From an uncultured Clostridia bacterium (GTDB lineage: Bacteria; Bacillota; Clostridia; Oscillospirales; Ruminococcaceae): a DNA stretch of 64,000 bases. The position numbers and the translations under genes were made by a program. Each line of letters opens with the position of its first letter. Position 1 is the stretch's first letter. The stretch covers positions 1-64,000 of the forward strand of contig CANRLH010000002.1 of NCBI GenBank assembly GCA_947631455.1, read 5' to 3'. Below the pieces are notes generated by a model that was not told where the DNA came from, ran no database searches, and was given only the letters and a program-made list of their open reading frames with translations. Positions 9,687 through 55,792 of the stretch are shown here, one piece after another.

Positions 9687-10544
9687 TTAATCTTTGTGAG
9701 ATACCAAAATTAAAATTTCTCTTAAAATTTTGCACGCCAGTGCAGTAGACCTTCCACTCGTATCATAAACGGGGGAAAGCTCATTTATATCAAATCCTAC
9801 AATATTCAGTTTTGATACTTCTTTTATTGCGTCAAGAAGTGCTATAAAACTTACGCCACCCGCTTCAGGTGTGCCTGTGCCGGGAAATTCACTTGGGTCC
9901 AGAACATCAAGATCGAGTGTGAAATATACGGGGGCCTGTCCGATATTTTGTACTGATTTGGATACATTTCCTAAGTCAAACCTGTTCATAAAGGTGTGCT
10001 CTTTGGCAAATATAAATTCATCTCTTTCGCCGCTGCGTATACCGAACTGAAATATTTTACCGTCACCTAAAAGATCGTGGCATCTTCTCATAACACAAGC
10101 GTGGGAAAGCTTTACACCCAGGTAATCGTTTCTGAGATCTGCGTGTGCGTCAAACTGAACGACATGAAGATCATCATATTTTTTCGCTGCCGCTCTTACT
10201 GCTCCCAGTGTTACAAGATGCTCACCGCCTATCATGCAGGGTAATTTTCCGTCGTCAAGTATAGTTTGTGTTCTTTCTTCAATATCCAGAAGCGCCTGTT
10301 CCGGAATGCCAAAGGGCAGCTCTAAATCTCCGCTGTCAAAGACCTTTATATCTGTAAGATCCTCATCCTGATACGGTGAGTAGGTTTCTATACCGAAGCT
10401 TTCACTTCTCATCGACTGGGAAGCAAACCTGGTTCCCGGCCGAAACGAGGTGGTGCTGTCAAACGGAGCACCGAAAAGCACGATCCGGGCGTCATTATAG
10501 TCACAGTCGCAACCGATGAAGGTCTGTATATTTTTATTCAACAT
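9687..10544 (-). CDS. speB: Agmatinase
   Basis: A ureohydrolase that hydrolyses agmatine to putrescine and urea with a binuclear Mn centre. Its 285 residues are normal. Metal-ligand motifs are GGEHLVT, VVQFDAHADLR and FTLDLDVLDPS; PGTGTPEAGG is the substrate loop of agmatinases. Its start overlaps the end of speE by 11 bases, indicating translational coupling. It follows arginine decarboxylase in the operon, which fits the arginine-agmatine-putrescine route. Confidence 0.93.
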   Translation of the reverse strand: MLNKNIQTFIGCDCDYNDARIVLFGAPFDSTTSFRPGTRFASQSMRSESFGIETYSPYQDEDLTDIKVFDSGDLELPFGIPEQALLDIEERTQTILDDGKLPCMIGGEHLVTLGAVRAAAKKYDDLHVVQFDAHADLRNDYLGVKLSHACVMRRCHDLLGDGKIFQFGIRSGERDEFIFAKEHTFMNRFDLGNVSKSVQNIGQAPVYFTLDLDVLDPSEFPGTGTPEAGGVSFIALLDAIKEVSKLNIVGFDINELSPVYDTSGRSTALACKILREILILVSHKD

Positions 10545-11385
10545 CTCTTAACAGCTCCTCAACATAATTGGGAAGCGCAAACGCTCCCACATGGAGTCTT
10601 GGGTTGTAGTATCTTGTATTAAGCCCGAGCATATTCCACTTAGTGCCATTGTAGTCATTTGTGGGATGATATTTTTTTGAAGCAAAACCGAAAAGCCAAT
10701 GTCCCGACGGGTATGTAGGAATATGAGCCTGATATACCTTACTTATAGGAAAGCTTTCAACTATTCGTTTGTGAGAGCGCTGCATTGAGGCTGCGTCTTC
10801 AGCGTAAAACGGACTTTCATGCTGATTTACCATTATTCCGTCTTCTTTAAGAGCCTTAAAGCAGCTTCCGTAAAACTCTTTGGTAAACAGTCCTTCACCC
10901 GGTCCGAACGGATCGGTGGAATCAACTATGATAATGTCGTATTCGTTTTCACACTTTCTGACAAACTTTACTCCGTCCTCACAATAGATGTTAAGCCTTG
11001 GATCGTCAAAGCGGCAGGCGGTTGTAGGCAGATACTGCTTGCTGACTTCAATTACAAGCTCATCTATTTCAACGAGGTCTATCCTCTCAACAGAGGGGTA
11101 TCTTGTAAGCTCTCTGACTACTCCGCCGTCACCCGCGCCTATTACCAGAATGTTCTTCGGATTCGGGTGAACTGCCATGGGAGTGTGTGTTATCATCTCG
11201 TGATAAATAAATTCATCCTTTTCGGTCAGCATCATATACCCGTCGAGAGTTAAAAAACGTCCGAACTCCTTTGAGTCAAAGACATCTATACGCTGAAATT
11301 CGCTGTATCCGCTGTAAAGCTGTCTGTCAACTCTTATTGAAAATTTTACGTTAGGCGTATGCCTTTCGGTAAACCAAAGCTCCAT
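10534..11385 (-). CDS. speE: Spermidine synthase (polyamine aminopropyltransferase)
   Basis: Transfers aminopropyl from decarboxylated S-adenosylmethionine to putrescine or another polyamine. The 283-residue protein has an N-terminal beta domain and a Rossmann-like methyltransferase fold: VIGAGDGGVVRELTRY for cofactor binding and DIIIVDSTDPFGPGEGLFT with the catalytic Asp. It begins 1 base after the speA stop codon. The operon also holds the carboxyspermidine route, so its acceptor may be spermidine rather than putrescine (see findings). Confidence 0.93.
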   Translation of the reverse strand: MELWFTERHTPNVKFSIRVDRQLYSGYSEFQRIDVFDSKEFGRFLTLDGYMMLTEKDEFIYHEMITHTPMAVHPNPKNILVIGAGDGGVVRELTRYPSVERIDLVEIDELVIEVSKQYLPTTACRFDDPRLNIYCEDGVKFVRKCENEYDIIIVDSTDPFGPGEGLFTKEFYGSCFKALKEDGIMVNQHESPFYAEDAASMQRSHKRIVESFPISKVYQAHIPTYPSGHWLFGFASKKYHPTNDYNGTKWNMLGLNTRYYNPRLHVGAFALPNYVEELLRDVE

Positions 11386-11386
11386 G

Positions 11387-12838
11387 TTAAACTCCTTTCA
11401 AAACGTTGAGACGCTCAATGTTTATGTCTTCAGTGCCGGTCATTGAGCAACCTTTTTCCTTGGCATACTTTATATACCTTATTATGTCTTCCGTAATAAG
11501 CTCACCCGGAGCAAGAATTGGTATTCCCGGAGGATAGCACATTACAAATTCACTGCATATCCGCCCAACCGTTTTGTCTAGTTCAAGCGGAGTTTTTTCT
11601 GCGTAAAACGCTTTTCTAGGTGACCGGGCTACAATTGGATTTATATATTCCTGAGTCAGCATTTCACCTGTTTTTGCTCGACCGAAGCGTCTGCGTATCT
11701 CAGAAAGCGCGCTTATAAGGCGTTCGATGTCCTGCTTTCTGTCGCCGATTGAAAGATATGCCAGAATATTGCCTAAATCGCCGAACTCTATCTGTATATC
11801 ATATTCGTCACGGAGAATATCGTATACTTCAATTCCCGCAAGACCGACAGACAAAGTGTGAACAGAAAGCTTTGAAACATCAAAATCATATATGCTGTCG
11901 CCGTTAATAAGCTCTTTTGAAAAGGCGTAATATCCACCTATTGAGTTTATTTCAGAGCGTGCGTATTCCGCCATTTTAACTGCTTTTGAAAAAATATCTC
12001 TGCCGTTTAATGCAAGGCGCTTTCTTGATATATCAAGGCTTGTCAGCAAAAGATACGACGCGCTGGTGGTCTGGGTCAGATTTACAATCTGGCGCATATA
12101 ATCGGAATTTATATTCTTCCCCATAAGAAGAAATGAGCTTTGTGTGAGGCTTCCGCCTGACTTGTGCATACTTACCGATGAAATATCTGCACCTGCTCCC
12201 ATTGCAGTAAGTGGAAAATCATCGCCAAAATAAAAGTGGGTTCCGTGGGCCTCGTCAACAAGGCACAGCATACCGTTTTCATGTGCAAGCTCTGTAATTT
12301 TCTTTAAATCTGAGCAAACGCCGTAGTATGTCGGATTGTTTACAAGCACCGCCTTTGCATCCGGGTTTTCCTTTATTGCTTTTTGAACCTCGCTTACTGA
12401 CATTCCCAAGGATATCCCGAGGTCAGTGTTAACATCAGGATTGACGTAAACCGGAATAGCATCGCATAAGATCAGTGCGTTTATTGCGCTTCTGTGGACA
12501 TTTCTCGGAAGTATTATTTTGTCGCCGCTTTTACAGGCGTACATTATCATGCTTTGAACCGAAGATGTAGTTCCGCCGACCATAAAAAAAGCATTTTCAG
12601 CGCCGAATGCCTCGGCAGTAAGGCTTTCAGCTTCACGTATGACTGAAACGGGATGGCACAGGTTGTCCAGCGGCTTCATTGAATTTACGTCCACATCAAG
12701 ACAGCTCTGACCGAGAAATTCGGTAAGCTCTGCATTTCCGCGCCCTCTTTTATGACCGGGAACATCAAACGGAACTATGCGCATTTTTTTGAATCGCTGT
12801 AACGCCTCGTAAATCGGGGCGCGGTTCTGATCAAGCAT
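11387..12838 (-). CDS. speA: Arginine decarboxylase, Orn/Lys/Arg decarboxylase family
   Basis: A 483-residue PLP-dependent fold-type I decarboxylase of the short Firmicutes SpeA/YaaO type. It has GGTTSSVQSM near the cofactor phosphate, LVDEAHGTHF, and the PLP lysine in SVSMHKSGGSLTQ. The C-terminal domain includes the family's CYPPGIPILAPGE. Lysine or ornithine decarboxylase cannot be excluded from sequence alone, but the downstream agmatinase makes arginine the likely substrate. It starts 2 bases after speD. Confidence 0.88.
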   Translation of the reverse strand: MLDQNRAPIYEALQRFKKMRIVPFDVPGHKRGRGNAELTEFLGQSCLDVDVNSMKPLDNLCHPVSVIREAESLTAEAFGAENAFFMVGGTTSSVQSMIMYACKSGDKIILPRNVHRSAINALILCDAIPVYVNPDVNTDLGISLGMSVSEVQKAIKENPDAKAVLVNNPTYYGVCSDLKKITELAHENGMLCLVDEAHGTHFYFGDDFPLTAMGAGADISSVSMHKSGGSLTQSSFLLMGKNINSDYMRQIVNLTQTTSASYLLLTSLDISRKRLALNGRDIFSKAVKMAEYARSEINSIGGYYAFSKELINGDSIYDFDVSKLSVHTLSVGLAGIEVYDILRDEYDIQIEFGDLGNILAYLSIGDRKQDIERLISALSEIRRRFGRAKTGEMLTQEYINPIVARSPRKAFYAEKTPLELDKTVGRICSEFVMCYPPGIPILAPGELITEDIIRYIKYAKEKGCSMTGTEDINIERLNVLKGV

Positions 12839-12840
12839 AT

Positions 12841-13602
12841 TCAGTAAACATTCCTTCCGTTGAAAATTTCAATCATTTCTCGCTTAAGAGCCGTACTTAT
12901 ATCAAGCCTTTTGTGAGGAGGAAGCTCGTCTATATCCGTGTTGAAAAGATAGTTCTGTAAGTAAAGCTCCTTTATAAGCATTTTTGTGTGAAATATATTA
13001 GCCTGATACACGTTTATATCGATAGCGTCGTACTTTTTTAAAGTTTCACGGTTGATGTAATCCTGAATGGACGTAATGTCGTGGTCGATAAAAAGCTTTT
13101 CACCGTCGATGTTTCTGGTAAATCCCCGTACCCTGTAATCCATAGTTATTATGTCTGAATCAAAGCTTCCGATAAGATAATCAAGCGCTGTCAGAGGAGT
13201 TATTTTTCCGCAGGTCGCAACGTCGATATCTACGCGAAAGGTCACAATGCTGTTGTGCGGATGAAACTCCGGGTAGGTATGTACCGTCACGTGGCTTTTG
13301 TCAAGATGAGCGACGATCTCGTTCCCACCCGCAGGCACCATGGTATCATCTGCAATCAGAAAGGTAGCAGATGCACCCTGAGGATCATAGTCCTGCCTTG
13401 ATATACTTAAAACCTGAGCGCCTATCATTTCTGTAAGGTGCGTCATTATATCTGTTATTCTCTTTGAGTTGTACTGCTCGTCTATATAATGAATATAGTC
13501 CTTCTGTTCCTTAAGAGTTTTTGCATAGCAAACATCGTATATGTTAAAGCTCAACGACTTCGTTAGATTATTAAATCCGTAAAGTTTAAGTTTATTTTCC
13601 AT
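12841..13602 (-). CDS. speD: S-adenosylmethionine decarboxylase proenzyme
   Basis: Makes decarboxylated S-adenosylmethionine, the aminopropyl donor for SpeE. The 253-residue protein resembles the long E. coli-type class. The self-cleavage site is in [14 protein letters not shown]: cleavage before Ser103 would generate the pyruvoyl cofactor. The ATG at 13602 is chosen because GAGGTG (13609-13614) is 6 bases upstream; a longer in-frame start would run into the terminator hairpin. It is the first gene of the operon, directly after the structured leader. Confidence 0.93.
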
Positions 13603-13932
13603 AGTTTTCACCTCAAAACAAAAGCACACAAGAATCCTCACTCTTGTGTGCTTTAAAAATCGTATTGCTAACGAAAAACGAACAGATATTTTAATGCTGG
13701 TTTCAGAGCCTGTATAGCAAATATACTTTTACTACTCTTATTGACCGTTTCACAAGTTGATGCAAAATTAAAACAAACTTATAAAATTCTATTTGACTGA
13801 AAAGTCCAATCAATAAGGCAACAGAAGTTGCCGTGCCGGCATTTGACCTAGCTGTCCGTATGGCTTTGACTTCATTTAAGAAGTGGTCAATCTTTGCTGT
13901 ATGATGAGTTCTGAAACATCATTTCTGCAAGT
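13603..13932 (-). promoter_or_regulatory. Structured ~330-nt leader of the polyamine operon (candidate riboswitch/attenuator)
   Basis: Transcription from the promoter at 13939-13967 would give a ~330-nt untranslated leader ending in a terminator 7 bases before the speD ribosome-binding site. Segment A (complement of 13885-13891, ATTGACC) can pair with B (GGTCAA, complement of 13843-13848) or with C (GGTCAAT, complement of 13740-13746), so two folds exclude each other. Other stems are ATGATG/CATCAT, CTTC/GAAG, GGCAAC/GTTGCC and GTATA/TATAC. I cannot match it to a riboswitch class. SAM or a polyamine would be the logical ligands. Confidence 0.6.
13621..13654 (-). terminator. Attenuator-type terminator immediately upstream of speD
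   Basis: A perfect 13-bp stem: AAAGCACACAAGA at 13621-13633 against TCTTGTGTGCTTT at 13642-13654, with an 8-base loop. On the minus strand TTGTTTTG follows, then the speD ribosome-binding site. Its position after the operon promoter but before the first gene implies conditional termination. CTTGTG (complement of 13753-13758) could pair with CACAAG of its 5' arm as an anti-terminator. Confidence 0.75.
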
Positions 13933-13938
13933 TATTAC

Positions 13939-13967
13939 ATTTTAACACGGTTTAGCCGCTTTGTCAA
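13939..13967 (-). promoter_or_regulatory. Sigma-A promoter of the polyamine operon
   Basis: On the minus strand: TTGACA (complement of 13962-13967), a 17-base spacer and TAAAAT (complement of 13939-13944). Confidence 0.85.
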
Positions 13968-14065
13968 GAGAAAAACAGTGAAAAATGGAATTTTATGCTT
14001 AGATCTTTGCTGATAATGTGGGTGTTTATAAGATATGCTGTCATCAAACTATCGTATTCGTAAAA

Positions 14066-22250: not shown

Positions 22251-22468
22251 AATAAAATTCCACCTTGCCGTCGCATAGCGTATAAAACCCGCACTCATGC
22301 AGGTGGGTAACCGCCTGATTGTTTCACGATCCCCTCGTCTCATAAGGATTTCTCGGCTTTCGCGGAGCCTTAGAGGAGGGTCTTCAATCTGCAAACAGAG
22401 TCTAAGTTCCCTTTTAAAATGTGTTGGATTATAAAATGCTATGCTTGATCGAACAAGGCAGAAATTTT
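22251..22468 (-). ncRNA. ssrS: Probable 6S RNA
   Basis: A ~218-nt region with no open frame that folds on the minus strand as one long rod, as 6S RNA does. The closing stem is AAAATTTCTGCCTTG (5') against CAAGGTGGAATTTT (3'). A terminal hairpin CCCTC..TCTAAGG/CCTTATGA..GAGGGG surrounds the loop. The 3' side of the central region carries CCCACCTGCATGAGTGCGGG and then GCGACGGCA, features I associate with Firmicutes 6S RNAs. 6S RNA sequesters sigma-A RNA polymerase in stationary phase. A covariance-model search would settle it. Confidence 0.5.
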
Positions 22469-55561: not shown

Positions 55562-55792
55562 AAAAATAAAAGCCCGCCCAAATATTGGGACGAACTTAAA
55601 AATTCCGTGGTACCACCCAAATTGCAGCATAAATAAAAAATGCTGCCGCTCGTGATCTTTAACGCAGATTTACGCTGCGGTTTTCCGCAGTGCTCAGGGT
55701 TAGCCGCCAAGAAGCGCCTGAAAGCTTTCACCGACCGCTTTCTCTCTGAAAAACGCCGCGCCTGGGTAAGTCCCTTCATAGCAGATTTTACT
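55562..55792 (-). promoter_or_regulatory. Alanine T-box riboswitch
   Basis: On the minus strand the leader has the AG bulge (CAGAGAG), the distal GGTGAAAGC loop, a probable specifier GCU (complement of 55702-55704, in GGCTAACCCTGAG) and the T-box GGGTGGTACCACGG (complement near 55604-55619) with the tRNA-binding TGG. The terminator GTCCCAA/TTGGGCGGG with a T-run sits just before alaS. Uncharged tRNA-Ala would stabilise the anti-terminator and turn on the alaS-HIT-purD operon. Confidence 0.93.

Follow-up and report, generated by a model that had tools for sequence, protein, structure and literature searches.

The SpF59/ldcC hairpin as one helix of a larger conserved leader RNA before polyamine genes: a putative polyamine-responsive transcription attenuator

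Introduction

Rfam family RF02440 (SpF59_sRNA, ldcC RNA) is modelled as a 54-nt sRNA gene family of streptococci, and its description names no ligand. The added name ldcC points to a candidate motif reportedly published by Weinberg et al. 2017. In the literature searched we recognised no paper treating the SpF59/ldcC RNA, which does not disprove that one exists; the string 'SpF59' occurs as part of strain names in the available text of a Legionella genome study and also in a ubiquitin review, and the word ldcC is absent from the available part of a review of C. difficile riboswitches (PMC11477304). The spermidine riboswitch that we found in print is, in the available part of its description, a variant of the SAM-I riboswitch with 13 examples, which has the SAM-I four-stem architecture, acts as a terminator-based OFF switch and precedes polyamine genes including ldcC, speE and speB (Salvail et al., 2023; PMC10853860). 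Natural polyamine riboswitches were long doubted, and in the same part of the paper the authors state that more classes surely await discovery.

Here we describe the leader of a speD operon in a 64,000-nt stretch of DNA from an uncultured Clostridia bacterium, referred to as the window. Like the published spermidine riboswitch, the leader RNA precedes polyamine genes and is terminator-based, but its core is different and it has no match to a SAM family. It resembles T-box and similar terminator/antiterminator leaders in that the 5' arm of the terminator competes for a leader strand. Unlike the RF02440 entry, it carries both a terminator and an antiterminator, and the Rfam hairpin is one helix in a cis leader of about 220 nt.

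Methods

Sequences of relatives were collected partly with the exact pattern GCCATACGGACAGCNNGGTC, which gave at least 118 stretches; conservation within GCCATACGGACAGCNNGGTC is therefore by construction. The rows of alignment A1 were chosen for the CUUGURA core and GACUCU, and those of alignment A2 for the core and a CUC end. Two pattern matches without the core (L067 and L100) were removed ahead of the counts. Among instances of a looser pattern the core was present in 160/174 and GACUCU in 129/174, the misses including contig ends, true variants and chance matches inside genes. With the window substituted for its own locus copy (L001), the core was found in 156 of 169 instances, which represent 151 different sequences when compared over the stretch that begins at GACC and ends shortly after the core.

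Results

The speD leader contains the RF02440 hairpin

The operon lies on the minus strand in the order speD, Orn/Lys/Arg decarboxylase, speE, agmatinase, and the following features define it and its leader.

12841..13602, minus strand: speD, the SAM decarboxylase gene that opens the operon; TIGR03331, 396.1 bits against a cut-off of 255.8
9687..12838, minus strand: remainder of the operon, Orn/Lys/Arg decarboxylase (PF01276, 245.6 bits), speE and agmatinase
13939..13967, minus strand: promoter by consensus match only, -35 TTGACA at 13967-13962 and -10 TAAAAT at 13944-13939
13621..13654, minus strand: intrinsic terminator 5' of speD, a perfect 13-bp stem AAAGCACACAAGA/TCTTGTGTGCTTT with a U-rich tail
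13836..13889, minus strand: RF02440 SpF59/ldcC hairpin (cmscan), comprising P2, P3 and the conserved GCCAUACGGACAGC at 13864-13851

The initial annotation of this DNA had placed a consensus promoter about 330 bases 5' of speD and a perfect 13-bp terminator just before the ribosome-binding site, and both are borne out: the promoter agrees with the consensus at 11 of 12 positions and has a 17-nt spacer with TG, and the terminator directly precedes the ribosome-binding site and the speD ATG at 13602. The leader between promoter and speD is about 330 nt long, with a transcription start expected near 13932. By itself the promoter site is weak evidence, because the same 1.5-kb stretch contains 10 promoter-like sites against 4.8 expected from shuffles. 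The leader fold is more stable than 100 of 100 shuffles (z -4.87).

When the window was scanned with cmscan, the leader matched RF02440 at 62.0 bits, above the curated gathering cut-off of 37.2 (E 9.7e-9 for the whole window), and the match recurred with permissive filters. The two share the arrangement UGACC...GCCAUACGGACAGC..GGUCA..UGCCG end to end (model positions 1-54), and the window RNA is a member of the family. The earlier statement that the leader could be matched to no known class was accordingly wrong, and the RNA is not unassigned because its core hairpin is the RF02440 match. The structured leader RNA is real, as confirmed beyond chance by the cmscan E-value and by covariation across the family.

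No SAM or other riboswitch family was matched in the leader at Rfam gathering thresholds, no SAM family was found at E values up to 1 within 13560-14020, and the SAM-I fold was not found; SAM-I and the other known riboswitch classes were rejected. Two snoRNA matches in the leader region (E 0.5-0.7) were taken as chance. T-box gave no Rfam match in the speD leader, the only T-box leader of the window lying at 55583-55788 on the minus strand (RF00230, 106.4 bits). A 6S RNA is also present, at 22253-22467 on the minus strand (RF00013, 70.3 bits).

Conservation and covariation extend over about 220 nt

In relatives, conservation and covariation reach over about 220 nt, of which the Rfam model covers 54. 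The elements of this domain in the window are as follows.

13700..13917, minus strand: entire conserved RNA domain as delimited by the two P1a strands (218 nt), from alignments of relatives
13910..13917, minus strand: P1a 5' strand GUUUCAGA, 8 bp with 13707-13700 in the window
13700..13707, minus strand: P1a 3' strand UCUGAAAC
13893..13897, minus strand: P1b 5' strand GCAAA, pairing with UUUGC at 13721-13717
13885..13890, minus strand: P2 5' strand UUGACC, inside segment A (see below); P2 covaries
13843..13848, minus strand: P2 3' strand GGUCAA, segment B; P2 covaries
13817..13832, minus strand: P4 hairpin GGCAAC uucu GUUGCC, both-side changes in 6/6 pairs in relatives
13705..13844, minus strand: 3' domain (model R1), nearly all beyond the Rfam model; cmsearch 106.5 bits, the window being a training row
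13808..13816, minus strand: P5 5' strand UUAUUGAUU, 98.1% of cells paired in relatives
13738..13746, minus strand: P5 3' strand GGUCAAUAA, including segment C
13795..13806, minus strand: P6 hairpin GACU uuuc AGUC, both-side changes in 4/4 pairs in relatives
13776..13786, minus strand: P7 5' strand UUUUAUAAGUU, 97.3% of cells paired, both-side change in 2/11 pairs
13748..13758, minus strand: P7 3' strand AACUUGUGAAA, containing the antiterminator strand CUUGUG (13756-13751)

An alignment of 74 sequences of the 3' part supports seven helices, with both-side changes in 20 of 41 pairs and 95.9% of cells paired; on each of five measures, 0 of 500 shuffles equalled the observed value. For P1a and P1b, 0 of 5000 permutations reached the pairing seen with the own partner, in a test that used 112 of 136 usable instances once near-duplicates had been removed and that ignores shared ancestry. 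Two further helices, P8 and P9, are present in most relatives and missing from the window copy; P9 was omitted from R1 because MAFFT gave no single register for it, and RNAalifold on alignment A2 also missed both P8 and P9. The conserved part in relatives is large and multi-helix, with long, nearly invariant stretches, and as a conserved structured domain before related genes it agrees with a transcription-attenuation riboswitch.

The domain does not preserve a reading frame, because the distances between anchors are spread over all three phases for 5 of 5 anchor pairs, and a conserved leader peptide, as in a leader-peptide attenuator, was rejected on these random phases. The 3' strand with AGRCUCU (window 13738-13705, minus strand) can pair either with the 5' strand of P1a or with an almost invariant GAGU close by (P10), so that a second switch inside the domain, P1a against P10, is possible; L158 keeps the short hairpin alone.

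Alternative pairings of the P2 strand

Segments A (13891-13885), B (13848-13843) and C (13746-13740) and the motif CTTGTG (13756-13751), as named in the initial annotation, are all present at the coordinates given there, which are correct. A switch had been proposed in which A pairs with either B or C. The first pairing stands: A:B is P2, which covaries, its outer pair being kept, G-U included, in 148 of 156 instances with three Watson-Crick types (U-A, G-C and C-G). The second does not stand as a conserved alternative and was rejected, since the base outside GACC pairs in only 80 of 153 instances and no covariation between A and C was seen in relatives: the base 3' of the core GGUC is A in 152/153, regardless of the opposite base in A, and the tetramer itself differs from GGUC in 24/153. 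Moreover, C is part of the 3' strand of the conserved helix P5. A:C is energetically possible in the window and appears, by eye, in the predicted fold of its partial transcript; among 153 family folds it is found in 24, compared with 58 for P2, 102 for P5 and 121 for P7. Because of these folds A:C may have a lineage-specific role, but as the switch itself an exchange between A:B and A:C is very unlikely.

Distribution of the RNA

RF02440 was present in 49/197 genomes of the family, 41/391 of the class and 18/398 of the phylum, with one match per carrier genome, under the stricter filters that were used for searches of more than 40 genomes and that lose weak matches. Model R1, built on the 3' part alone, matched 25 of the 398 phylum genomes (four of these matches reproducing a training row exactly and a fifth coming close to one), including 18/18 with RF02440, and in all 18 the two matches adjoin. 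The seven R1 matches missed by RF02440 have E values from the 1e-20 class to 1e-4. R1 therefore detects members that the Rfam model overlooks, because speD or the decarboxylase lies 3' of each of the seven. When seven loci were scanned against Rfam at gathering, nothing matched in the 3' part, and two of these loci, L187 and L189, had no RF02440 match at all.

Carriers among the matches listed include Bacillus, Paenibacillus, Acetobacterium, Blautia, Faecalibacterium, Phascolarctobacterium, Acidaminococcus and one spirochaete MAG, and carrier loci compared side by side are alike over about 220 nt. Lactococcus lactis was the only one of 14 named control genomes with an RF02440 match. Two genomes of the window's genus given as 99% complete (G074 and G164) had no RF02440 match under the stricter filters, and the RNA seems patchy within that genus. 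Phage carriage was rejected on 0 matches of a single exact pattern in viral contigs. Two genomes of one genus, at loci L198 and L200 (~1500-1720), have the 3' part CUUGUGAA...AAUAAGAGUAGUAAAAGUA...GACUCUG and the P1b partner before speD, the ldcC hairpin and inner helices seemingly missing by eye; a terminator follows the RNA in L198, again by eye, and is less clear in L200.

Gene context and candidate ligand

A polyamine gene follows the RNA on the same strand in 149/149 scorable instances, as tallied from the longest nearby ORF after 7 of the 156 had been dropped because no long ORF lay close enough. The RNA precedes speD 58 times, a gene for an Orn/Lys/Arg decarboxylase 40 times, one for a potA-type ATPase 31 times and a carboxynorspermidine-synthase-like gene 20 times, and partition of the first genes by BLAST gave the same four groups without overlap. 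Members of the last, saccharopine-dehydrogenase-like group are at least 91% identical to L051, from a Bacillus, where aligned; the three that were scanned matched the NCBIfam carboxynorspermidine synthase model below its cut-off (whole L051 protein 421.8 against 800 bits), and the next gene of L051 is nspC, for carboxynorspermidine decarboxylase (502.6 bits against a cut-off of 409). The median distance from core to start codon ranges from 158 to 274 nt by gene group.

SAM or a polyamine had been put forward as the ligand. A polyamine fits, polyamines being common to all four gene groups, and repression by spermidine would account for this most simply; the ligand may also be putrescine or a different polyamine. 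A riboswitch for some other ligand (SAM, decarboxylated SAM, agmatine, putrescine, cadaverine, lysine or arginine) would agree with the consumption of SAM by speD (58/149) and with the diamines or agmatine produced by the decarboxylases (40/149), but 31/149 instances precede a potA-type gene, and in 20/149 the gene that follows is carboxynorspermidine-synthase-like and belongs to the SAM-free route. These two contexts disfavour SAM in particular, and none of SAM, decarboxylated SAM and the amino acids is shared by the four groups, so that we consider another ligand unlikely.

Terminator and antiterminator

A terminator lies 3' of the domain in 113 of the 154 instances with enough sequence; the other 41 have none by the criteria used, at least one of them (L019) looking real by eye. 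The 24-nt region around the start of the terminator 5' arm contains CAAG or CAGG (CARG) in 97/113, against 32/231 in a control set of other terminators from the same loci, and the duplex of the core ACUUGURAAACGGUC with the arm has a mean energy of -9.3 kcal/mol compared with -5.3 in the controls. In 60 of 113 instances, where about 9% would be expected, no other stretch of the RNA pairs better with the arm than the core does; in the remaining 53 the core is outscored by another stretch. Variable bases just 5' of the core, which form the 3' strand of P9, extend the helix between core and arm. In 96 of the 113 instances, retained once near-duplicates had been removed, core and flank pair with their own terminator arm at -15.15 kcal/mol and with permuted arms at -12.68 (sd 0.23; 0/5000, shared ancestry ignored), a result that recurs when three lineage groups, of 42, 18 and 35, are taken separately. 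The earlier suggestion that CTTGTG could open the terminator has thus held up, in that the terminator 5' arm pairs with the core and covaries with its flank.

Rfam files RF02440 as 'Gene; sRNA', and a terminated leader would indeed look like an sRNA. That the leader is the gene of a trans-acting small RNA is nevertheless extremely improbable, given that the terminator covaries with the flank of the core and that a polyamine gene lies 3' on the same strand in every scored instance; this anatomy speaks for a cis leader.

The core strand that pairs with the terminator arm is also the 3' strand of P7. Since domain folding and antitermination exclude each other through this shared strand, the folded domain would be the terminated state. 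A terminator with a competing antiterminator is tied to the domain at the level of the family, and the antiterminator is weak in the window, where CUUGUG pairs over 6 bp with the following element at -7.5 kcal/mol, compared with the mean of -15.15 over 96 instances.

13643..13648, minus strand: CACAAG in the terminator 5' arm, pairing with CUUGUG

The window's free fold has an energy of -90.9 kcal/mol, compared with -67.9 with the antiterminator forced, a cost of 23 kcal/mol. Because energy folding so strongly favours the terminator, the window copy would have to act kinetically or be mostly OFF. Relative to the free minimum, the consensus aptamer with the terminator costs 7 to 11 kcal/mol (-79.6 with P1 to P7, -83.9 with P2 to P7), and P5 to P7 with the terminator (-90.1) costs 0.8; in the predicted partial transcript of the window P1b, P2, P5 and P6 are improbable. 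Energy folding alone thus does not arrive at the complete consensus aptamer.

Discussion

By its apparent mode of action we class the window RNA with the transcription-attenuation riboswitches, ligand binding being putative, and on the strength of its sequence and that of its relatives a riboswitch for polyamines is the probable reading. Our working model is that the nascent leader would adopt an extended structure of many helices (P1-P7, joined by P8 and P9 in most relatives), which a polyamine, most likely spermidine, would stabilise. In the folded state P7 (and P9) would hold ACUUGURAAACG, leaving the terminator arm free, and transcription would stop before speD; at low polyamine, ACUUGURAAACG would instead pair with the terminator 5' arm as the antiterminator, and the operon would be read. 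The antiterminator logic would be identical with any binder, including a regulatory protein whose binding to the RNA would select either the terminator or the antiterminator, and L198 and L200, which seem by eye to keep just the 3' part, look as if a short site were enough. However, the large multi-helix domain with its long, nearly invariant stretches is more aptamer-like, and a regulator is the first gene in 0 of 149 scored instances; a protein-dependent attenuator is in our opinion quite unlikely.

We see roughly even chances that this RNA is a second natural riboswitch class for spermidine (or polyamines), its fold unrelated to the SAM-I variant: more widespread in Bacillota, about 220 nt long, present once per carrier genome among those searched and placed before the leading polyamine gene of each lineage, with the 54-nt SpF59/ldcC hairpin as one helix. 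The architecture is novel only if the ldcC motif of Weinberg et al. 2017 does not already show the full length. A large conserved RNA precedes genes for both SAM-dependent and SAM-free spermidine synthesis and for polyamine import, which suggests redrawing RF02440 at full length, and the mapped switching helix makes the question of a polyamine riboswitch directly testable in laboratory Bacillus.

In four loci (L077, L099, L111 and L149) the RNA is short and has no terminator by the criteria used. A CCAUC...GAUGG hairpin is seen by eye beside the start codon in three of them; it could hide the ribosome-binding site, which may mean translational control.
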